In this document: positions 8,258 to 55,730 of the stretch, one piece after another
How the letters are laid out: each line of letters opens with the position of its first letter
Position numbering within the stretch: position 1 is the stretch's first letter
Origin: Roseinatronobacter sp. S2
Lineage (GTDB): Bacteria > Pseudomonadota > Alphaproteobacteria > Rhodobacterales > Rhodobacteraceae
Reading direction: 5' to 3'
NCBI RefSeq assembly: GCF_029581395.1
Contig: NZ_CP121113.1
Span: forward strand, 800,501-864,500
DNA length: 64,000 bases
The notes under the pieces: generated by a model
The model's database searches: none
Told to the model about the DNA's origin: nothing
Seen by the model: only the letters and a program-made list of their open reading frames with translations
Translations under genes and position numbers: made by a program

Positions 8258-8728
8258 TCAGAAATAATCTGCCGCGAAATTTTCAAGCACGATGCGCCAC
8301 CAGTCGAATGTGTCGTCCAGATTTTGCGCGCTGACGCCGCCAAACAGGTTCACGTCCCATTCAATGACAGGGTCGTTTTCCAGATCCAGATATGCCTTGC
8401 CAAAACGCTTGTCCTGATTCCACAGGTTCATGTCATCCAGTGTAAGTTCGCCGGGGTTTTTCCAGCCCGCCTGAAACTGAACTGTGGTGCAATCTGCCCC
8501 GTCGGTGCAGCCATAAAAATTGACCGTATATAAAACCCCGTTGATCCGGCCCAGAATTTGCGGATCGCCGACACCGTCGGTCTGGATGGTGGCTGACCCA
8601 TAGCCGCTTGCGATATTGGCAATAGCATCCACATCGCCTGCATCGATCAGGGATTGGGCGAAGGTTGCAGGGGCAAGGGCAAAACTGCCCATCAATGCCA
8701 TTACTGGCGAAATTGCAGCGAAGCGCAT
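8258..8728 (-). CDS. YbjN domain-containing protein with signal peptide
   Basis: A 156-residue exported protein. The start at 8728 has AAGGAA upstream and opens a classical signal peptide (MRFAAISPVMALMGSF...TFAQ), with cleavage expected after about residue 24. The mature part (IGRINGVLYTVNFYGCTDGADCTTVQFQAGW) matches the YbjN fold seen in many short periplasmic alphaproteobacterial proteins. The two cysteines (GC...DC) probably form a disulfide. Function is unknown; in Escherichia coli YbjN has been linked to motility and stress regulation, but that need not apply here. It is divergent from rluA. Confidence 0.78.
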   Translation of the reverse strand: MRFAAISPVMALMGSFALAPATFAQSLIDAGDVDAIANIASGYGSATIQTDGVGDPQILGRINGVLYTVNFYGCTDGADCTTVQFQAGWKNPGELTLDDMNLWNQDKRFGKAYLDLENDPVIEWDVNLFGGVSAQNLDDTFDWWRIVLENFAADYF

Positions 8729-8861
8729 GGGGAAAATTCCTTTGTTCGTCGACAAGACCCCAGCTTTGCGCTGTTCCCGTGCGTCGCGCAAGTCGTATTT
8801 GATGGCCGCGAAGTGGGAATGCGCTTGTGCTGGGGGGCCTTGCTGCGCCATGGTCTGGCGC

Positions 8862-9512
8862 ATGTCTGACATGGTTTATGCCCCACCCCCCGATACGCCT
8901 GTAATCCTGCATCAAGATGAGGATGTGGTTTTTGTAGACAAACCTGCGGGCCTGTTGTCGGTGCCGGGTCGCGGCCCGGACAAGAGTGATTGCATGATTG
9001 CCCGTCTGGCGCGGATTTATCCTGAGATCCTGCTGGTGCACAGGCTGGATCAGGACACGTCTGGTGTGATGGTTTTCGCGCGCACCGCAGCCGCACAGCG
9101 CCATCTGGGGCAGCAGTTCGAAACCCGAAAGACACGCAAGTATTATATCGCGCGGGTCGCAGGCCACGTTGGCGAAACCGAAGGGCATGTGGACCTGCCG
9201 TTGATCGTGGACTGGCCCAACCGTCCGCTGCAAAAAGTCTGCCATGAAACCGGACGCCCCGCCCAGACGGACTGGAAACTTATCCGCCATGAACAGGGGG
9301 CGTCCCGTTTGCGCCTGATGCCGGTGACCGGTCGCAGCCATCAGTTGCGCGTTCATATGCTGGCCATAGGGCATGTTATTCTGGGCGATACGCTTTATGC
9401 GACGGGGGATGCGCTGGACCATCCGCGACTGATGCTGCATGCGCAATCCCTGCGGCTGAAGCACCCTGCGACGGGACATAGCATGACGATTACGGCCCCG
9501 GTTCCGTTTTGA
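8862..9512 (+). CDS. rluA: RluA-family pseudouridine synthase
   Basis: Isomerises uridine to pseudouridine in RNA. The 216-residue protein lacks an S4 domain, has the catalytic motif HRLDQDTSGVMVFA with Asp63, and ends with the family's GRSHQLRVH and HPRLMLHA elements. Length and Asp position are close to E. coli RluA, which modifies 23S rRNA U746 and tRNA U32, so that dual specificity is plausible. The ATG at 8862 is used; a second in-frame ATG lies 9 bases on. The longer frame from 8616 runs over the divergent YbjN gene and is rejected. Confidence 0.88.
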   Translation: MSDMVYAPPPDTPVILHQDEDVVFVDKPAGLLSVPGRGPDKSDCMIARLARIYPEILLVHRLDQDTSGVMVFARTAAAQRHLGQQFETRKTRKYYIARVAGHVGETEGHVDLPLIVDWPNRPLQKVCHETGRPAQTDWKLIRHEQGASRLRLMPVTGRSHQLRVHMLAIGHVILGDTLYATGDALDHPRLMLHAQSLRLKHPATGHSMTITAPVPF

Positions 9513-9597
9513 ATGATTGGGGCGCATCTGGAACCTGGTCCGATCTGGTTGAATCATCCGGTTCATGGGTGGCTTTGGTATTTTGCGGTCAGTGGGA

Positions 9598-9829
9598 ATG
9601 CCCAAGGCGCGGAGCAAAGGCCGAAGGCCGCCGCGCCATCGGCGGGCCGTCCCGCGGCCTGCCGATTTGGCTGATGGCAATCCAAGCCTTTGAAGTAAGG
9701 ATATGCAGCCTGCATAAACTGCATTCTTATAATGTCGGATCGGCAGTCCCCGGCCCACCGCTGGCGCGGGCTTAGTCCAAGCACGAACGTCCCCTTCAGG
9801 CCAGAATCAACCAGCCTTGCGATTCCATC
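9598..9829 (+). repeat. Dispersed repeat, copy A (about 230 bp)
   Basis: Begins near CCCAAGGCGCGGAGCAAAGG and ends near CAGCCTTGCGATTCCAT. It lies in the 482-bp gap between the convergent genes rluA and rhlE. It matches the copies at 22766-23003 (inverted) and 35126-35357 over almost the whole length. Internal structure: an arm at about 9634-9664, a perfect palindrome TATGCAG-C-CTGCATA at 9702-9716, and a second arm at about 9738-9767 that is an imperfect reverse complement of the first. Open frames on the opposite strand run through it but keep no single frame in all copies. The rest of the gap (9830-9955) shows nothing recognisable. Confidence 0.85.
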
Positions 9830-9955
9830 TTACATGACACTGCTATAGTGCGCGTCGCGGTTATTTGCATTTATCTGACCCACTCTGACCTTTTGACAAC
9901 GCGTGTCCGCGAAGCGCAAATCCGGTTCGCAGTTTTGCGCGACATGCTCTGGCAT

Positions 9956-9994: not shown

Positions 9995-11335
9995 TCAGGC
10001 AGACCGGCGGTGGCGGTCCTTGCCGCCGGATTGTCCGGCGGGTTTGCCCGACCCCGTCCGTTTGCCAAAGGCTTTTTGGCGTGGCTTGCGGTTTTGACCT
10101 TCGCCGCCATCATGTGACGGACCCGAGCGCTGCTGCGGGCGGCCACCACCGCCACGCTGCGGGCCGCGCTTGCGCGCAGCGGCGCGGGCGGGGCCTGCCA
10201 GATCGTCGGCCCATGGGGTGCCACCGGCCACAGCCAGTTCAATGCGCATCAGCTTTTCGATGGCGCGCAGGTCCCCCATTTCGGCGGGCGCGCAAAATGC
10301 AAGCGCGCGGCCAGTCGCACCTGCACGGGCTGTGCGGCCAATGCGGTGGACGTAGTTTTCCGGCACTTCCGGCAGATCATAGTTATAGACATGGCGCATG
10401 TCGGGAATGTCGATGCCGCGTGCGGCCACATCCGTGGCGACCAGCACCTTGACCTTGCCTTCGCGGAACCCCTGCAAGGTGCGTTCGCGTTGCCCTTGGC
10501 TTTTGTTGCCGTGAATGGACCCGGCCGGAATGCCCCAGCCGTTCAGCAGTTTCATCAGTTTTTCGGCACCGTGTTTGGTGCGTGAAAAGACCAGCGCCAG
10601 TTCTTCGGGATGGGCTTTCAGATACCCTTCCAGCACGCGCGCTTTCTCGCCTTGCGCCACAAAATGCACGGATTGGTCAATCTTGTCGGCAGGGCGGCCC
10701 GGTGCGGACACCTGAATACGCTCTGGCCGGTCCAGATAGGCATCGGCAATTTCGTTCATCTGCTTGTTCATCGTCGCCGAGAACATCAGCGTCTGGCGTT
10801 CTTTCGGCAGCAGGGATGCAATTTTACGCAGCGCATGGATGAAGCCCAGGTCAAGCATCTGGTCGGCTTCGTCCAGAACCAGCATCTGCGTTGCATGCAG
10901 TGTCAGTGCGCGCCGTTCCAGCAGGTCCAGCAAACGGCCCGGTGTTGCCACCAGAATATCGCAGCCTTTGGCCAGTTTCTGGATTTGCGGGTTCAGCCCC
11001 GCACCGCCGACAACGCGCTGAACTTTCAGCGGGGTCTTGCGGGCAAAGTTGTCGAGTGTTGTCGCGATCTGGGTCACCAGTTCGCGTGTGGGCGCAAGGA
11101 TCAGCGCGCTTGTGGTTTTCGGCGCGGGCCGCTCGCCACTCAGCAGGGCATGCATGACGGGCAGGCCAAAGGCCAGCGTTTTGCCGGTGCCGGTCTGGGC
11201 CAGCCCCAGTATGTCGCGGCCTTGCATGATCATCGGGATCGCGCGGGCCTGAATCGGGGTGGGGGTGCCAAAGCCTTGGGCTTCAAGGCTTGTCATCAGC
11301 ACCGGGCGCAGCCCGAACATGGTAAAATCAGTCAA
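9995..11335 (-). CDS. rhlE: DEAD-box ATP-dependent RNA helicase, RhlE-like
   Basis: A 446-residue RNA helicase for ribosome assembly or RNA turnover. In order it shows the Q motif (GFGTPTPIQ), Walker A AQTGTGKT, DEAD in VLDEADQML, SAT in FSATMN, and HRIGRTARAG, then a basic, Gly/Arg-rich C-terminal tail from about residue 385 for RNA binding. The start is taken as TTG at 11335, which has AGAGGA six bases upstream and yields LTDFTMFG, matching the MTDFTMFG-type start expected for the family. A GTG at 11350 and an ATG at 11320 are alternatives. The leader contains a 7-bp hairpin. Confidence 0.9.
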   Translation of the reverse strand: MTDFTMFGLRPVLMTSLEAQGFGTPTPIQARAIPMIMQGRDILGLAQTGTGKTLAFGLPVMHALLSGERPAPKTTSALILAPTRELVTQIATTLDNFARKTPLKVQRVVGGAGLNPQIQKLAKGCDILVATPGRLLDLLERRALTLHATQMLVLDEADQMLDLGFIHALRKIASLLPKERQTLMFSATMNKQMNEIADAYLDRPERIQVSAPGRPADKIDQSVHFVAQGEKARVLEGYLKAHPEELALVFSRTKHGAEKLMKLLNGWGIPAGSIHGNKSQGQRERTLQGFREGKVKVLVATDVAARGIDIPDMRHVYNYDLPEVPENYVHRIGRTARAGATGRALAFCAPAEMGDLRAIEKLMRIELAVAGGTPWADDLAGPARAAARKRGPQRGGGGRPQQRSGPSHDGGEGQNRKPRQKAFGKRTGSGKPAGQSGGKDRHRRSA

Positions 11336-11401
11336 AATAAGTCCTCTCACGGCCTGTCCGCACAGGCGTAGTGCCCCTGGCAGGGCAGGGGCGGGTTTGG
11401 G

Positions 11402-21681: not shown

Positions 21682-21922
21682 GTGCAATATCTTGCACGAC
21701 CCGCAGGTGCAGACAAGGAAAATGGCAGCGCCGCGCCCCGGTTGGTCGTCCGGCTGAGTGGCCTTGTGTGCCGTTGGCTGGGCCGCATGCGTATGTTCTG
21801 CGATCTTACACATTATTGGTGCAGATGCTTTTGCAAAGCTTGCGCCGCTTGCGTCGATGCCTATAGCCTGCGGCCCATGCGCGGCGCATCATGGATGCGG
21901 CCACACGAAACAAGGGGAAGAC

Positions 21923-22756
21923 ATGCAAGACCGCACCGGTATTGACTGGACTGATGCATTTGCCAACCGGCCTTACATTTATCAGGCGGACAGCTATCCC
22001 GCAGCATGGGCGACTTGCGCGCAGCTGTTTCGCGATACCGTGCAGGGTGCCCGTCTGGATATGCCCTATGGTGCGTCCCCGCGAGAGGTGTTTGACCTGT
22101 TTGTGCCCGCCAGCGCCCCGCCCAAGGGGGTGATGGTTTTTGTGCATGGCGGCTACTGGATGGCGTTTGACAAATCCCATTGGTCGCATCTGGCCCAAGG
22201 GGCACTGGCGCAGGGGTGGGCCGTTGCGATGCCGCAATACAGTCTGGCCCCCGATGCCGGAATTGACCAGATGACAGTCCAGATTGGCCGCGCCATCACC
22301 GAAGTGGCGCAGCATGTGGCCGGCCCCATTGTTCTGGCCGGCCATTCGGCGGGCGGGCATCTGGTGACGCGTATGGTTTGCGAAGATGCGCCCGTGTCGC
22401 CCGATGTGCAGGCCCGCATTTGTCATGTGCTGTCGATTTCCGGCCTGCATGACCTGCGCCCGCTGCAAATGACGGCGATGAATGCAACATTGGGCCTGAC
22501 AGAGCAGATTGCGCAACGCGAAAGCCCCGCGCTTCTGCGTCCGGTGGGCGGGATTGCGGTGACGGCATGGGTTGGGGGGCATGAACGGCCGGAATTCCTG
22601 CGCCAGTCCGCCTTGCTGCGCGAGGCATGGTCGCGTTGTGGCGTGCCGGTGCGGCTGGTGGTGGATGAAGGATTACATCATTTCAATGTCATTGACGGGT
22701 TAGCCGACGCGGGCAGTATGTTGACCCGCGCCCTGCTGCAACTGCCCGAGGGGTAG
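21923..22756 (+). CDS. Alpha/beta hydrolase, kynurenine-formamidase-like
   Basis: A 277-residue serine hydrolase. The HGGYWMAFDKSHWSH segment (oxyanion hole) and the GHSAGGHLV nucleophile elbow are those of the esterase/arylformamidase-like alpha/beta hydrolases, and the catalytic His is in EGLHHFNVID. This group includes KynB-like formamidases, but no tryptophan-catabolism genes are adjacent, so the substrate is open. The ATG at 21923 has AAGGGGAAG upstream; the frame extended to 21758 is not supported. No signal peptide. Confidence 0.82.
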   Translation: MQDRTGIDWTDAFANRPYIYQADSYPAAWATCAQLFRDTVQGARLDMPYGASPREVFDLFVPASAPPKGVMVFVHGGYWMAFDKSHWSHLAQGALAQGWAVAMPQYSLAPDAGIDQMTVQIGRAITEVAQHVAGPIVLAGHSAGGHLVTRMVCEDAPVSPDVQARICHVLSISGLHDLRPLQMTAMNATLGLTEQIAQRESPALLRPVGGIAVTAWVGGHERPEFLRQSALLREAWSRCGVPVRLVVDEGLHHFNVIDGLADAGSMLTRALLQLPEG

Positions 22757-22765
22757 CTGAACCTG

Positions 22766-23003
22766 TGCTGGTTGAAATGGCCCGTTTTTGGGGGGGCGGT
22801 CTTTTGCTGAAGTTTAGCCCATGGACAAAGCCCGCGCCATCGGTGGGTCGGGGTCTGCCGATCCGGCGTTTGAGGGATGCAGTTTATGCAGGCTGCATAC
22901 TCCTTACTTGAACAGCTTGGCGTGCCACCAGAGTAATCGGCAGGCCGCGGGACGGCCCGCCGATGGCGCGGCGGGCTTCGCCCTTGATTCCGCGCCTTGG
23001 GGT
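22766..23003 (-). repeat. Dispersed repeat, copy B (inverted relative to A and C)
   Basis: Read on the minus strand this matches copies A and C from the CCAAGGCGCGG end (near 23003) to the AACCAGC tail (near 22768). The palindrome TATGCAG-G-CTGCATA lies at 22885-22899, flanked by the two inverted arms. It is the most diverged copy, especially between the palindrome and the tail. It lies between the alpha/beta hydrolase and the branched-chain-type substrate-binding protein gene, both on the plus strand, in a 380-bp gap. A 93-codon frame (22821-23102) running through it is probably not a gene. Confidence 0.82.
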
Positions 23004-23136
23004 GTCAGCCGTCGCGATCACCGATTCAACACCGCGTGGGCGAAATTCTACCAAAGGGGCGGCGGAACTTTACTTTTCCCCCAGCCTTGCGCAAGACTGT
23101 GACCAAAGATCAGATAATCAGGGAGACGGGGACAAA

Positions 23137-24279
23137 ATGAAGGCATTTAAACATGCGGCCTTTGCCGCAACGCTGGCAGTGGGCGCTGTATCCATGGCAA
23201 AGGCAGACACTGTCAGCGTAGGCATGATCACAACTTTGTCCGGCGGCGGCGCGGGTTTGGGCGTCGATGTGCGCGACGGGTTCCAGCTGGCGCTGGACAT
23301 GGCCGGTGAACACAATATCCGGCTGGTTGTCGAAGATGATGCGCAGCGGCCTGAACTGGCGGTGCAGATTGCCGAGCGTATGATCCAGGCGGAACGCGTG
23401 GACATCCTGACCGGCATCATCTGGTCGAACCTTGCCATGGCCGTTGTGCCCTCGGCGGTGGCGCAGGACATATTGTATCTTTCGCCCAATGCTGGCCCAT
23501 CCGCGCTGGCGGGGGCGAATTGTCACCCGAATTATTTCAATGTCGCATGGCAAAATGACATGCTGCATGAAGGGGCCGGGGCATATGCCAATGAACTGGG
23601 CTATGAAAACACATTCATCATGGCGCCCAATTACCCCGCTGGCACAGATGCGCTGAGCGGGTTCAAACGCTATTATGAGGGCGAATTGGCGGGCGAGTTG
23701 TTCACCCAAGTTGGCCAGACCGATTATGCCGCCGAACTGGCGCAGATCCGTGCATCTGGCGCGGATTCGATTTTCATTTTCCTGCCCGGTGGCATGGGGA
23801 TCAGTTTCATGCGCCAGTATGAACAATCCGGCCTTGATCTGCCGATTGTTTCGGCGGCGTTTACATTCAGTCAGGACATGCTGCCTGCCGTGGGCGCTGC
23901 CGCGCTGGGCGTGTTCAATGCAAGCCAATGGTCGCCCGATCTGGACAATGACGCCAATCAGGAATTTGTCGCGGCGTTCCGCGCGGAATTCGGGCGCATC
24001 CCGTCGCTGTATGCCAGTCAGGGGTTTGACACGGCCAATCTGATCCTGTCTGCCGCCGCGAAGGCAGATGTCAGTGACCGCGATGCATTCCGGCAGGCAC
24101 TGCTGGAGGCCGATTTCGCATCCGTGCGCGGTGAATTCGCTTGGGGGCCGAACCAGCACCCGATCCAGCGTGTCTATATCCGCGAAGTTGTCGAGGTGGA
24201 TGGCGAAATCACCAACCGCATCATCGGGACCGCATTTGAAGCGCATGCCGATGTGCATGGCGAGAACTGCAATATGTAA
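23137..24279 (+). CDS. Branched-chain-amino-acid-type ABC transporter substrate-binding protein
   Basis: A 380-residue periplasmic binding protein of the LivJ/LivK (type I) fold with the signal peptide MKAFKHAAFAATLAVGAVSMAKA. The start of the mature domain, VSVGMITTLSGGGAGLGVDVRDGFQLAL, and RPELAVQIAERMI are typical. The gene heads a complete transporter cluster (SBP, two permeases, two ATPases). The ATG at 23137 follows GGGAGACGGGG. The ligand cannot be read from sequence; this family includes amino acid, amide, urea and aromatic-compound binders. Confidence 0.9.
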   Translation: MKAFKHAAFAATLAVGAVSMAKADTVSVGMITTLSGGGAGLGVDVRDGFQLALDMAGEHNIRLVVEDDAQRPELAVQIAERMIQAERVDILTGIIWSNLAMAVVPSAVAQDILYLSPNAGPSALAGANCHPNYFNVAWQNDMLHEGAGAYANELGYENTFIMAPNYPAGTDALSGFKRYYEGELAGELFTQVGQTDYAAELAQIRASGADSIFIFLPGGMGISFMRQYEQSGLDLPIVSAAFTFSQDMLPAVGAAALGVFNASQWSPDLDNDANQEFVAAFRAEFGRIPSLYASQGFDTANLILSAAAKADVSDRDAFRQALLEADFASVRGEFAWGPNQHPIQRVYIREVVEVDGEITNRIIGTAFEAHADVHGENCNM

Positions 24280-33455: not shown

Positions 33456-35060
33456 ATGACGCCGTTTGCAGCCCCCGTCGATGACATTTTGTGGTCGCTG
33501 GATTTTGCCGGTGCCGCCAGCATTCCACATTGGGACCGTGACCTGACCGCCGAGATTGTCCAGCATTTCGCCGCATTCGCCCAAGGACGCATTGCGCCCC
33601 TGGATGAACAGGGTGACCGGCAAGGATGCAGGTTGCAAAACGGGCGCGTGTTCATGCCCGACGGGTTTGATGCGGTGTTCCGGGAACTGGCGGGCGATGG
33701 TTGGCAGGGGCTGACCGCGCCCGAAGCCTTTGGCGGGCAGGGGATGGGGGGCGCGGTTCACGCCGCGATATCGGAAATCTTTTCAGGGGCGTGCCATTCC
33801 TTGCAGATGGTGACAGGGCTTGTGCCCGGTGCCATCCGCCTGCTTATGGATTTTGGCAGTGCCGATCAGCAGGCGCGGTTCATTCCGCCATTGGTGTCGG
33901 GTGACTGGCTGGCAACCATGTGCCTGACGGAACCGGGCGCAGGGTCGGATTTGTCGGCCATCCGCACCAAGGCCGAAGATACCCCGCAGGGGTGGCAGAT
34001 CAGTGGCGAGAAGATCTTCATCTCTGGCGGGGACCAGAACCTGAGTGACAATATCCTGCATCTGGTGCTGGCGCGCACCGGACCTGACGGAACGAAGGGC
34101 CTTAGCCTGTTTGGCTGTCCCGCCGTGCTGGACGGTGGCGCGCGCAATGCAGTCACAGTCACGCGGATTGAAGATAAGATGGGTCTGCATGCCTCGCCCA
34201 CATGCCAGATGGCGTTTGACGGCGCGCAGGGCGAATTGATTGGTGCCGCTGGGCAGGGGCTGGCGGCAATGTTCACACTGATGAACCATGCGCGCCTTGA
34301 CGTGGCCTTGCAGGGTGTGGCCCATGCCGCGCGGGCGCATGCCGTTGCATCCGCCTATGCGTCGCAGCGCGTGCAGGGGCGCCAGCCCGACGGGCTGCCC
34401 GCCACATTGGACCAGCACGCCGATGTGCGCCGCATGATCGACCGCGCCGATGCGCACGCCGTGTCAGCGCGCGCCCTGACGCATTCCGCACTTGTCGCGC
34501 TGGAAACCGGCAATCAGGCACTGGCGGATTTTCTGACACCTGTTGCCAAGGTCTGCGGGTCGGATGCGGGAACGCAGGCCGCCGAACTGGCAGTGCAGGT
34601 TCTGGGCGGGTATGGCTATCTGCATGAATACCGCGTTGAACAGACTTACCGCGATGCGCGCATCTGCGCCATCTATGAAGGAACGAACGGTATTCACGCA
34701 GCGACCATTGCCACGCGCGGGCTGTCCTATAATGGTGGTGTGCAGGCAGATGCGTTTGCGGCATGGATTGGCGGAATCGCAGATGATACGCATTCGGGCA
34801 GTTTGGCGGCCGCCTTGCAAGACTGGACTGCGTTGCGTGAAACGACCAGTGCCGCCCCGCGTGATATGGCGCCTGCCTTCATGCAAGTGACCATCGCACT
34901 GGCCGAACTGGGCTTTTGGGTGCGGGTTGGGGCCGATGATGCTGCCCCGTCACGGATTCGCGCCTTGTCCCTGGAACGCAGCGCTTTGCTGCCGGGGCAG
35001 GTTTCGCATCTGGTGGCGCAAGCGCGGATCATGGCGGAACTGTCAGGCGGCCCGCGCTAG
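33456..35060 (+). CDS. Acyl-CoA dehydrogenase, long DmdC-like form (paralogue)
   Basis: A 534-residue flavoprotein of the same long ACAD group as the gene at 1156. TEPGAGSD (flavin binding) and IYEGTNGIHA with the likely catalytic Glu at about residue 408 are present, along with a shortened C-terminal domain. It has an AGG near the ATG and follows the SDR gene by 12 bp. It probably works on a short or branched acyl-CoA handled jointly with the SDR. It is convergent with the LysR gene across repeat copy C. Confidence 0.87.
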   Translation: MTPFAAPVDDILWSLDFAGAASIPHWDRDLTAEIVQHFAAFAQGRIAPLDEQGDRQGCRLQNGRVFMPDGFDAVFRELAGDGWQGLTAPEAFGGQGMGGAVHAAISEIFSGACHSLQMVTGLVPGAIRLLMDFGSADQQARFIPPLVSGDWLATMCLTEPGAGSDLSAIRTKAEDTPQGWQISGEKIFISGGDQNLSDNILHLVLARTGPDGTKGLSLFGCPAVLDGGARNAVTVTRIEDKMGLHASPTCQMAFDGAQGELIGAAGQGLAAMFTLMNHARLDVALQGVAHAARAHAVASAYASQRVQGRQPDGLPATLDQHADVRRMIDRADAHAVSARALTHSALVALETGNQALADFLTPVAKVCGSDAGTQAAELAVQVLGGYGYLHEYRVEQTYRDARICAIYEGTNGIHAATIATRGLSYNGGVQADAFAAWIGGIADDTHSGSLAAALQDWTALRETTSAAPRDMAPAFMQVTIALAELGFWVRVGADDAAPSRIRALSLERSALLPGQVSHLVAQARIMAELSGGPR

Positions 35061-35125
35061 AGTCTGGTCGGGTCAGGTTGAAACATGCGCTGGCGTGGTG
35101 CTGCCCTGTTGCAGACCTTGCGAAT

Positions 35126-35357
35126 GTCCCAAGGCGCGGAGCAAAGGCCGCAGGCCGCCGCGCCATCGGTGGGCCGTCCCGCGGCCTGCCGATTTGGCTG
35201 ATGTCATGCCAAGCCTATGATCTTGGGAATATGCAGCCTGCATAAAGTGAACTTCACTCATGTCGGATCGGCAGACCCCGGCCCACCGATAGCGCGGGCT
35301 TAGTCCCCGCGCGAATGTCCCCTTCAGGCCAAAATGAACCAGCCTTGCGGTTCCATT
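35126..35357 (+). repeat. Dispersed repeat, copy C (about 230 bp)
   Basis: It runs from CCCAAGGCGCGGAGCAAAGG to CAGCCTTGCGGTTCCAT and is very similar to copy A in the same orientation. The first arm (about 35159-35194) and second arm (about 35269-35300) are imperfect reverse complements, around the palindrome TATGCAG-C-CTGCATA at 35230-35244. It fills most of the 319-bp gap between the convergent acyl-CoA dehydrogenase and LysR genes. A 111-codon frame on the minus strand crosses it but is probably not a gene. Confidence 0.85.
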
Positions 35358-35379
35358 TCCCACCCTTGCGCGATACGCG

Positions 35380-36300
35380 CTAACCGGACCCTGTGTCCTG
35401 CACATCAAACATATCGTGCAAGGCGCGGATCATGGCGCTGCTTTCCGGGGTGGGGGGCGTGTCGGCGCGGGTGCATATACCCACTGGCCCGGCCATCAGG
35501 CTGGTGCCCAGTTCCAGCGCGCACAAGCTGCCCTGTTTGATTTCATCATCCACAACACCGGCCGAGATGAACCAGACCGCATCGGACAGCTGCACCACCT
35601 TGCGCCCGAAGGCAAGCGAGACACTTTCAAAAGCGGCGGGTTGGTGCTGCAAGCCGATGCTAAGCAGATAGGACTGCACCGCAGGCGCGATGACAGCACC
35701 GCTTGGCGGCAACAAAAGCGGGAATTTCCCCAGATATTCGGCCACGGCCCCTGTTCGGGTCAGCGGATGGTCAGGGCGCACCACCATCACCACCTGTTCC
35801 GAATACAGTTGCTGAAACGCCAGACCTGTCATTTGTTCGGGGTTGGGCATACGGCCGACGGTCAGGTCCAGCGACCCTTCGCGCAGTTGTGACAGCAGCA
35901 ACCAGTTCGGCCCCGTGGATACGCGCAAGGTGCAGTTGGGCATGTCATTATAAAAGGCCAGTGCCGCGCGTGGAAATACATCAGTTGCCACAGTGGGCAG
36001 AATGCCGACGACCAGCTTTGTGATACGTTCGGGCGCGCCCCGTGCAAGGCTTTGGGCACGTTCCAGCGCCAGCATGGCCCCGCCTGCATGTTGCTGGAAC
36101 AGTTTGCCGGACGGTGTCAGCGCCAGTCTGCGGCCCGTGCGGTCAAACAGCGCCACGCCAAGAATGTCTTCCAGTTCACGGATGGTTTTTGAGGCTGCGG
36201 GTTGCGATACGCGCAACGCGCTGGCTGCCGCACTCAGGCTTTCCAGCCGCGCGGTTTCCAGAAAGCACCGCAAATGGCGCAGGCGCAGGCGTGGGTCCAT
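35380..36300 (-). CDS. LysR-family transcriptional regulator, PcaQ-like
   Basis: A 306-residue regulator. The N-terminal winged helix (residues 6-65) is followed by the effector-binding domain. The stretch LRHLRCFLETARLESLSAAASALRVSQPAASKTIRELE is a standard LysR opening, and GRMPNPEQMTGLAFQQLYSEQVVMVVR is the segment I associate with the PcaQ/GbpR branch. No protocatechuate or sugar genes are adjacent, so its target is unknown; it may act elsewhere. Confidence 0.86.
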   Translation of the reverse strand: MDPRLRLRHLRCFLETARLESLSAAASALRVSQPAASKTIRELEDILGVALFDRTGRRLALTPSGKLFQQHAGGAMLALERAQSLARGAPERITKLVVGILPTVATDVFPRAALAFYNDMPNCTLRVSTGPNWLLLSQLREGSLDLTVGRMPNPEQMTGLAFQQLYSEQVVMVVRPDHPLTRTGAVAEYLGKFPLLLPPSGAVIAPAVQSYLLSIGLQHQPAAFESVSLAFGRKVVQLSDAVWFISAGVVDDEIKQGSLCALELGTSLMAGPVGICTRADTPPTPESSAMIRALHDMFDVQDTGSG

Positions 36301-54990: not shown

Positions 54991-55084
54991 GCTCAAAAGT
55001 GGGAACCGGTTTTGAGCTTCTCGAACATGCGCAATCAATAACTTAGAGCATGTCTCGTGAATGCGAATGAACGTGATATGCTCT
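54991..55084. repeat. Alphaproteobacterial palindromic intergenic repeat, long form
   Basis: The first part has inverted arms GCTCAAAA and TTTTGAGC (54991-54998, 55010-55017) around GTGGGAACCGG. The second part has AGAGCAT and ATGCTCT (55045-55051, 55078-55084) around a spacer with CGT/ACG pairs. Elements built from these blocks are scattered in many alphaproteobacterial genomes. The end overlaps the yggS stop codon, so the repeat appears to supply it. The rest of 54859-54990 shows nothing recognisable. Confidence 0.7.
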
Positions 55085-55730
55085 AGCGGCGTGCGCCGAA
55101 TATGGCAGAGCCGACGCGCACATGGGTTGCGCCATGCGCAATTGCAACTTCGAAATCGTCGCTCATGCCCATGGACAGCGCATCCAGCCCGTTGCGCGCG
55201 GCCATCTGTGCCAGCGCGTCAAAATGGGGGGCGGGGTCGTCATTCACGGGGGGGATGCACATCAGCCCCAGCACGGGCAGGTCCAGCGCGCGGCAATCCG
55301 CGATGAAGCTGTCGGCATCATCTGGCAGGATACCGGCCTTTTGCGGTTCCGCGCCGGTGTTGACCTGCACGAACAGGTCGGGGCAGTGGCCCAGTTCCTG
55401 CGCCAGCCGCGCAAGGCTGCGGGCCAGTTTGGGGCGGTCCAGTGAATGGATGGCCTGAAACAATTCCATGGCCGCGCGGGCCTTGTTGCTTTGCAGCGGT
55501 CCAAGCAGGTGCACATCCAGCGGGCCGAATTCCGCGCGCCAGTCGGGCCATTTGTCCGCCGCTTCCTGCACACGGTTTTCACCGAACAATCGGTGACCGG
55601 CGTGCAGCACGGGTAAAACGCGGTCATGGGGTTGTTCTTTGGACACGGCAATCAGCCGCACGGAGGCGTTGGCCCGCCCATGGGCTTTGGTGGCGCGGGC
55701 AATGCGGGTGGTGATGTCAGTCAGGGACAT
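55083..55730 (-). CDS. yggS: YggS-family pyridoxal-phosphate homeostasis protein
   Basis: A 215-residue PLP-binding protein with an alanine-racemase-like barrel. The PLP-lysine is in VRLIAVSKEQP, and GENRVQEA, HLLGPLQSNKA (His-x-x-Gly-x-x-Gln-x-Asn-Lys) and SMGMSDDFEVAIAHGATHVRVGSAIFG are diagnostic. It helps keep free PLP balanced. The ATG at 55730 is 13 bp downstream of the short porin-like gene, so they may be one transcript. Confidence 0.94.
   Translation of the reverse strand: MSLTDITTRIARATKAHGRANASVRLIAVSKEQPHDRVLPVLHAGHRLFGENRVQEAADKWPDWRAEFGPLDVHLLGPLQSNKARAAMELFQAIHSLDRPKLARSLARLAQELGHCPDLFVQVNTGAEPQKAGILPDDADSFIADCRALDLPVLGLMCIPPVNDDPAPHFDALAQMAARNGLDALSMGMSDDFEVAIAHGATHVRVGSAIFGARR

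Follow-up and report, generated by a model that had tools for sequence, protein, structure and literature searches.

The palindromic repeat present three times in the window (the whole 64,000-nucleotide stretch analysed here) belongs to a family that we consider probably to be a non-autonomous, REP/MITE-like hairpin element of the Rhodobacteraceae, which sits at gene ends, is exchanged between lasting sites and, as we infer, has a two-way role at mRNA 3' ends. The element would spread and be exchanged as DNA, and its copies would persist mainly where two genes end face to face. Once a site is occupied, its core would often be overwritten by another copy in either orientation, with about half of the left breakpoints and fewer of the right ones falling just inside a TGGCCT-like motif of the terminal repeat. 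Gene-end repeats in bacteria are usually read as passive mobile DNA or as terminators. In this family a strong gene-end preference (79 of 104 copies between convergent genes) is joined with measurable turnover (at 24 sites with flanks about 96% identical, 17 cores replaced and 7 of these turned round). A free-living bacterium thus offers a test of two questions: what mobilises hairpin repeats where no intact RAYT is found, and whether such hairpins determine the 3' ends of the two converging mRNAs.

The host, Roseinatronobacter sp. S2, is an alkaline-spring bacterium, and we searched its genome of 4,445,845 bases in 6 contigs, one of which, C1, has 3,479,920 bases. The first-pass annotation had reported three copies within 26 kb, one of them inverted. 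All three were recovered where it had placed them, with cmsearch E values of 4.9e-28 to 1.1e-25 for the cores, but the whole genome contains over a hundred. BLAST with one repeat copy as query gave at least 40 strong places (40 of 151 candidates scored). The 23-nt inner motif GGGCCGTCCCGCGGCCTGCCGAT, allowing up to 3 mismatches, occurred at 115 places (58 + 57), and the reversed-pattern control gave 0; further copies, for which a whole-genome search had been proposed, are thus plentiful. Among the matches listed, three motif places were on the 613-kb contig C3 and the remainder on C1. We gathered 104 distinct copies with their flanks from this genome, and 93 distinct full-length core matches were left once window duplicates were removed. 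The pairwise identity of the cores averaged 77%, and the closest pair was 97.9% identical. For comparison with other species we used the best 76 of 137 matches, same-genus records included. The repeat is real, and its copies are above chance.

The repeat unit consists of a 165-nt core, in which a small hairpin is followed by a long bulged hairpin, within imperfect terminal inverted repeats of about 60 bp. The core contains, in order, the small hairpin (GCGCGGA..AAGGSCGNAGSCCGCCGCGC), arms a and b, some 75 nt of loop that include the motif ATAAA, arms c and d, and GCGCGGCTT; the long bulged hairpin is formed by pairing of a with d and of b with c. Among 61 foreign copies whose two ends were set by script, 50 had a core of 163-166 nt. 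In the S2 copies the outer arms are imperfect inverted repeats of about 60 bases on each side, often with TGGCCTGAAG or TGGCCTTTTGC; left and right arms match each other as the terminal inverted repeats of a MITE do, imperfectly and in mixed variants. The window copies are intergenic and their arms are imperfect reverse complements, as had been described. The left border had been drawn too short, because conservation runs about 60 bases further out, where the sequence is an inverted repeat of that at the right end. Six places in S2 (L054, L071, L076, L094, L106 and L116) and one in Sulfitobacter (L162) have short forms of about 67-70 nt. In these the sequence separating arms b and d, which resemble each other, is missing, a loss that slippage or recombination between b and d would be expected to give. 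Tandem or near-tandem pairs of elements, about 240-410 bp apart, were found in several genomes (L067 1505-1668 and 1756-1920; G057 C1:943265 and 943509; G111 C1:20549 and 20957).

Copy 1 lies on the plus strand. Its core (9607..9771; cmsearch R1, 141.1 bits, E 2.8e-26) is preceded by a degenerate terminal inverted repeat as left outer arm (9548..9606, outer limit approximate), which is conserved beyond the core in the 104-copy alignment and has TGGCTT at 9570 where many copies show TGGCCT. The right outer arm, the inverted repeat of the left, is conserved in the same alignment and extends over 9772..9835 (outer limit approximate), with AGGCCA at 9798. Copy 2 is inverted, with its core on the minus strand at 22830..22995 (cmsearch R1, 138.1 bits, E 1.1e-25). 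Alignments place its outer arm on the 3' side of the core at 22766..22829 (minus strand, TGGCCC at 22778) and the arm on the 5' side at 22996..23060 (minus strand, outer limit approximate). Copy 3, again on the plus strand, has its core at 35134..35299 (cmsearch R1, 149.8 bits, E 4.9e-28). Within it are the small 5' hairpin HP1 (35134..35163; GCGCGG...CCGCGC, inner GGCC-GNA-GGCC), arm a (35165..35176), arm b (35182..35193), the constant loop motif ATAAA (35242..35246), arm c pairing with b (35267..35278) and arm d pairing with a (35279..35290), all on the plus strand. Its left outer arm (35066..35133, plus strand, outer limit approximate) is conserved beyond the core and starts near the stop codon of the neighbouring gene, whose end is at 35060; the right outer arm, likewise conserved in the 104-copy alignment, occupies 35300..35365 (plus strand, outer limit approximate), with AGGCCA at 35326.

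We examined the fold in an alignment (A4) of 44 sequences from many genera, three of which are the window copies. The search pattern behind A4 fixed HP1, so the invariance of this small hairpin counts as no evidence. In the long fold 92.0% of pairs were standard, as compared to 82.5% in shuffled alignments (none of the 500 reached the observed value) and no more than 51.8% in slid versions. Cells changed on both sides numbered 117, versus 32.9 in the shuffled and at most 23 in the slid controls. An alternative fold with two hairpins (a-b and c-d) was weaker, with 85.7% paired and a covariation of 0.145 versus 0.218 for the long hairpin. The earlier suggestion of constraint on a folded shape, to be checked with a covariance model for compensating arm changes, is therefore supported by covariation far above both controls. 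The stems are also more uniform than the loops: in the 93 S2 copies the mean majority frequency was 0.95 in 66 stem columns and 0.82 in 100 loop columns. The loop motif ATAAA is constant in 92 of these 93 copies and in 72 of the 76 best of 137 other-species matches. The palindrome TATGCAG-N-CTGCATA, which had been taken as the unchanging centre, is indeed identical in the three window copies, but it is present in only 27 of 93 S2 copies and in 3 of the 76 best of 137 other-species matches. We rejected it as the conserved feature, and selection on it is not supported. Rfam gave no window match at the gathering score; four hits below gathering near copy 3 (E 1.1 to 3.7) look like chance, and a known RNA family was set aside.

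For genome surveys the exact 30-base small-hairpin pattern was used, so all survey counts are lower bounds. In one genome per species of GTDB 220, at least 119 stretches carried the pattern. Among the matches listed (80 records), the titles point to Rhodobacteraceae, except for one labelled only Alphaproteobacteria; some of the genera are ones that we take to belong to this family. The proposed search of related genomes was also positive, with matches in 26 of 198 Rhodobacteraceae genomes (nearly one per genus, S2 included). The number of exact matches per genome reached 87 in G165 and was 70 in S2, 50 in G111 and 20 in G057. Outside the family, none of 285 genomes had the exact pattern (289 genomes of the class were searched, 4 of them from the same family, and S2 alone matched). 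Within the genus, 15 of 24 genomes, S2 included, had a BLAST match to copy 3. Ninety-four plasmid records matched, 91 from Pseudosulfitobacter, many of them near-identical, and 3 from Salipiger. Phage records showed no match to the repeat, and a phage origin was rejected.

The location of the copies relative to genes, which the first-pass annotation had missed, is strongly biased. On our own codon-bias gene calls, a few of which overlap the core, 79 of 104 S2 copies lie between convergent genes, 24 between tandem genes and 1 between divergent genes, and 103 of 104 have at least one facing gene 3' end. The core lies at a median distance of about 74 bases from a facing stop codon on its left and about 72 bases from one on its right. 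As background, convergent spacers make up 50 of 351 spacers in 0.39 Mb of genome G018, 32 of 186 when only spacers of at least 50 bp are counted, and 8 of 61 in the window. Fisher p values for the S2 copies are 4e-32 against all G018 spacers and 3e-23 against the longer ones. Eight of 10 copies in G018 itself are convergent. Copies in other species, same genus included, were convergent in 40, tandem in 23 and divergent in 4 of 67 cases (Fisher p 3e-10 against the longer G018 spacers). At the tandem sites of S2 the direction of the element is mixed (15 and 9).

Copy 1 lies between genes for an RNA pseudouridylate synthase (8616..9512, plus strand; PF00849, E 2.1e-32) and a DEAD-box helicase (9995..11350, minus strand; PF00270, E 2.5e-49), and copy 3 between genes for an acyl-CoA dehydrogenase (33456..35060, plus strand; PF00441, E 7.4e-26) and a LysR-type regulator (35380..36300, minus strand; PF03466 and PF00126); all four genes have their 3' ends toward the element. 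Copy 2 follows the 3' end of an alpha/beta hydrolase gene (21758..22756, plus strand; PF07859, E 4.6e-10), and on its other side is a periplasmic binding protein gene (23137..24279, plus strand; PF13458, E 2.2e-74; start codon chosen by hand), so that this pair is tandem and not convergent.

A two-way role of the hairpin at mRNA 3' ends is plausible. Since most pairs are strict Watson-Crick, transcripts from either side could both fold the same 3'-terminal hairpin. This hairpin may end or protect both mRNAs, or may at least be harmless there. Strict Watson-Crick pairing would be the expectation for a hairpin needed on both strands, or for a DNA hairpin. Among the 104 copies, 98 plus ends and 100 minus ends were scored, and a run of at least four T within 12 nt was found at only 2 and 1 of them, respectively; lacking a U-tract, the core does not qualify as a standard intrinsic terminator. 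When copies 1 and 3 and their surroundings were scanned for terminators, no call fell on a core. The calls obtained were a weak one within the left outer arm of copy 1 and one for a terminator beside it, and a separate terminator stands next to the element at some sites. Even with no function, mobile elements would be expected to persist best between convergent genes, and the location may arise from selection alone, insertions there being the least harmful. A passage in PMC3049150 gives the same least-harm view of location for pneumococcal repeats.

The first-pass annotation also overlooked that cores at shared sites are exchanged and inverted. The sequences flanking the 104 copies were compared with G018 over about 0.79 Mb (flank identity 80-91%) and with G012 over about 1.19 Mb (93-98%), together with loci already collected from both genomes. 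Eighteen sites were readable in G018. Eleven were without the core, one of these with a small remnant, and the absence was clean, for example, at L028 and L073. The cores of copy 1 (L001) and copy 3 (L005) are absent there, and copy 2 (L051) is represented by a remnant only. At the core-less sites, where a target-site duplication was looked for, the flanks are 81-87% identical and the ends of the element could be placed only approximately. At the 7 occupied sites, 6 cores were inverted and none was the closest relative of the S2 core; independent insertion into the same spacer may account for the cores in G018.

In G012, the one relative on which the evidence for replacement rests and a metagenome assembly, 24 of 25 orthologous sites had a core, an occupancy slightly overstated because for three sites (L035, L051 and L093) the way in was a match to the element or to the window. 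Seventeen cores had the same direction as in S2 and 7 were inverted. Only 7 of the 24 best matched the S2 core at their own site (mean identity 0.949). The G012 core at the site of copy 2 has the same orientation, with an identity of 0.958. At the other 17 sites, which count as replaced, the S2 core of the site ranked 4-82 of 104 as a match (mean identity 0.811), and 7 of these 17 were inverted. L086, with a poorly aligned right flank, is the least certain inverted site; leaving it out gives 6 inverted among 16 replaced cores. The flanks were alike in the two classes, with a mean identity of 96.1% at sites with orthologous cores and 95.9% at replaced sites. If the G018 spacer density holds, about one fifth of convergent spacers are occupied in S2 (79 copies versus about 440 spacers), so independent insertion would hardly account for the high co-occupancy in G012, which makes the sites old and the cores young. 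By raw count, the left breakpoint lay 6-12 nt past the start of the TGGCCT-like motif at 8 of 17 replaced sites, and the right breakpoint 5-11 nt inside it at 4 of 17. These observations fit movement or exchange at the DNA level, often bounded by the terminal repeats and with no fixed direction.

Ordinary RecA-type gene conversion among long-established repeats could produce such exchange with no dedicated enzyme, one core overwriting another through the homology between copies and the quasi-palindromic arms permitting either orientation, and we regard it as a serious possibility, though not the one we favour. It easily explains same-direction replacement and internal breakpoints; at 4 of 17 replaced sites (L018, L020, L042 and L074) a breakpoint lies inside the core, which looks like plain gene conversion. 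The greater uniformity of stems than of loops would also agree with it, and the arms of copies in opposite orientation have stretches of about 18-20 bp in common. It accounts less easily for inverted replacement; an inverted whole-unit swap leaves only about 10-15 bp of end homology, at the TGGCCT repeat. Moreover, none of the 7 inverted cores was a flipped ortholog, whereas 7 of 17 same-direction cores were orthologous, a difference that is suggestive only (Fisher p 0.065). A more specific form of the exchange that we favour would make convergent gene ends docking sites, at which a putative recombinase recognising the hairpin or TGGCCT swaps and flips cassettes on a short evolutionary time scale, the two-way hairpin being kept while sequence and direction change. 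We offer this form tentatively and consider it rather doubtful.

Mobilisation as a REP/REPIN by a RAYT, a Y1 tyrosine transposase, is unlikely. The hairpins, copy number and 3'-end location are similar to those that passages in PMC3733652 and PMC2817692 give for REPs, and Y1 transposases scored above cut-off in 6 of 26 repeat-carrying as compared to 12 of 172 other family genomes. The mobilising factor elsewhere that the earlier note had envisaged was nevertheless not borne out as an intact RAYT in S2, G111 or G057, and no transposase or recombinase was linked to the repeat. A PF01797 search of S2 yielded a single 30-residue fragment below the Pfam cut-off (L120 1501-1590, equal to C1:1060394-1060483), and G111 and G057 had no PF01797 match despite their 50 and 20 exact repeat matches. 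The gene beside this fragment resembles what we take to be an IS21-type istB. By eye, no GTAG or CGTC tag was seen at the hairpin feet in the 104-copy and 44-sequence alignments; CGTC is present inside the a-b loop of the S2 subfamily, not at the hairpin foot.

It is similarly improbable that the repeat is a functional RNA module, a bidirectional 3'-end hairpin kept vertically and not mobile, whose absences are losses. Covariation and the extreme location bias would suit such a module, and so would an excess of A.C over G.T pairs in the long hairpin, which is what an RNA made from the complementary strand would give: 69 versus 5 in the 44 sequences of A4, 125 versus 6 in the 93 S2 copies, and 118 versus 12 in the best 76 of 137 other-species matches. 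This excess is not relied on here, because it is concentrated in few columns (columns 34-39 with 162-167 and 58-60 with 150-152 of A4; 80 of the 125 S2 cases in a single column) and because stem substitutions within S2 are symmetric (25 G>A and 28 C>T). We dropped the reading of one strand as RNA for the same reasons. Clean absence of the core at orthologous sites, as at L028 and L073, and paralogous replacement with inversion both argue against a module that does not move.

That the swaps and inversions are assembly errors at repeats is very improbable even with G012 being a metagenome assembly, because the S2 cores are so divergent that they are hard to confuse in assembly, the S2 genome was assembled from Nanopore and Illumina reads into circular contigs (PMC10508151), and inversions were seen against G018 as well.

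The mobile hairpin element that we favour is of a known kind as a dispersed intergenic palindromic repeat, and its unusual part is the orientation-free replacement of cores at shared sites. The first-pass proposal of a MITE- or REP-like element is supported by the more than 100 copies, the terminal inverted repeats and the presence or absence at orthologous sites. Similar to the family described here (115 motif places; 103 of 104 copies 3' of a gene), REP, BIME and REPIN sequences are intergenic palindromes of high copy number that are found chiefly 3' of genes and between ORFs in tandem or convergent arrangement, and complementary changes preserve their palindromy, according to passages in PMC3733652, PMC2817692 and PMC3116915. 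REP units are 20-40 bp long, in contrast to a 165-nt core with terminal repeats. Part of PMC3733652 points to the frequency of GT pairing in REP stems, whereas G.T pairs are few in the stems of this element. Core exchange and inversion at shared sites are a further difference from REPs. Like MITEs, the element is non-coding, has terminal inverted repeats and is present or absent at orthologous sites; it differs from them in its long covarying internal stems, with no target-site duplication defined and no parental transposon known. No autonomous or long gene-carrying form was noticed among the copies collected.

The RIME or mosaic elements of Rhizobium, reportedly described by Osteras et al. 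in 1995, are said to be palindromic and intergenic and likewise come from Alphaproteobacteria. Their host group differs from the Rhodobacteraceae, and the likeness is one of description. RUP, BOX and SPRITE of Streptococcus pneumoniae are likewise small repeats with a structure; according to part of PMC3049150 they are enriched between convergent genes and regarded as non-autonomous. The hosts are unrelated, the RUP enrichment given there is milder (23 convergent versus 65 upstream of a CDS, as compared to 79 of 104 here), and SPRITE has a uridine-rich tract that the Rhodobacteraceae element lacks. We recognised no published description of the repeat in the literature searched, most subscription papers being outside it. 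With no such description, Rfam match or REP tag found, the family appears to be new.

Other small elements were seen at the repeat. A second palindromic repeat of about 100 bp, with GAGCAT...ATGCTC ends, is inserted in the right outer arm at L285 of G012 and absent at L018 of S2. It has TA at both ends, versus a single TA at the empty site, a footprint by which it would be classed as a mariner-type MITE. Possible relics of it in the window, at 9917-9950 and about 55000-55085, consist of short exact words only. In other species, palindromic inserts of about 22-44 nt were found in arm a (L168, L174, L179, L192, L222 and L227, perhaps also L209). They lie at nearly one point, directly following ATCG or AGCG, which would suit targeting of the hairpin by other small elements.
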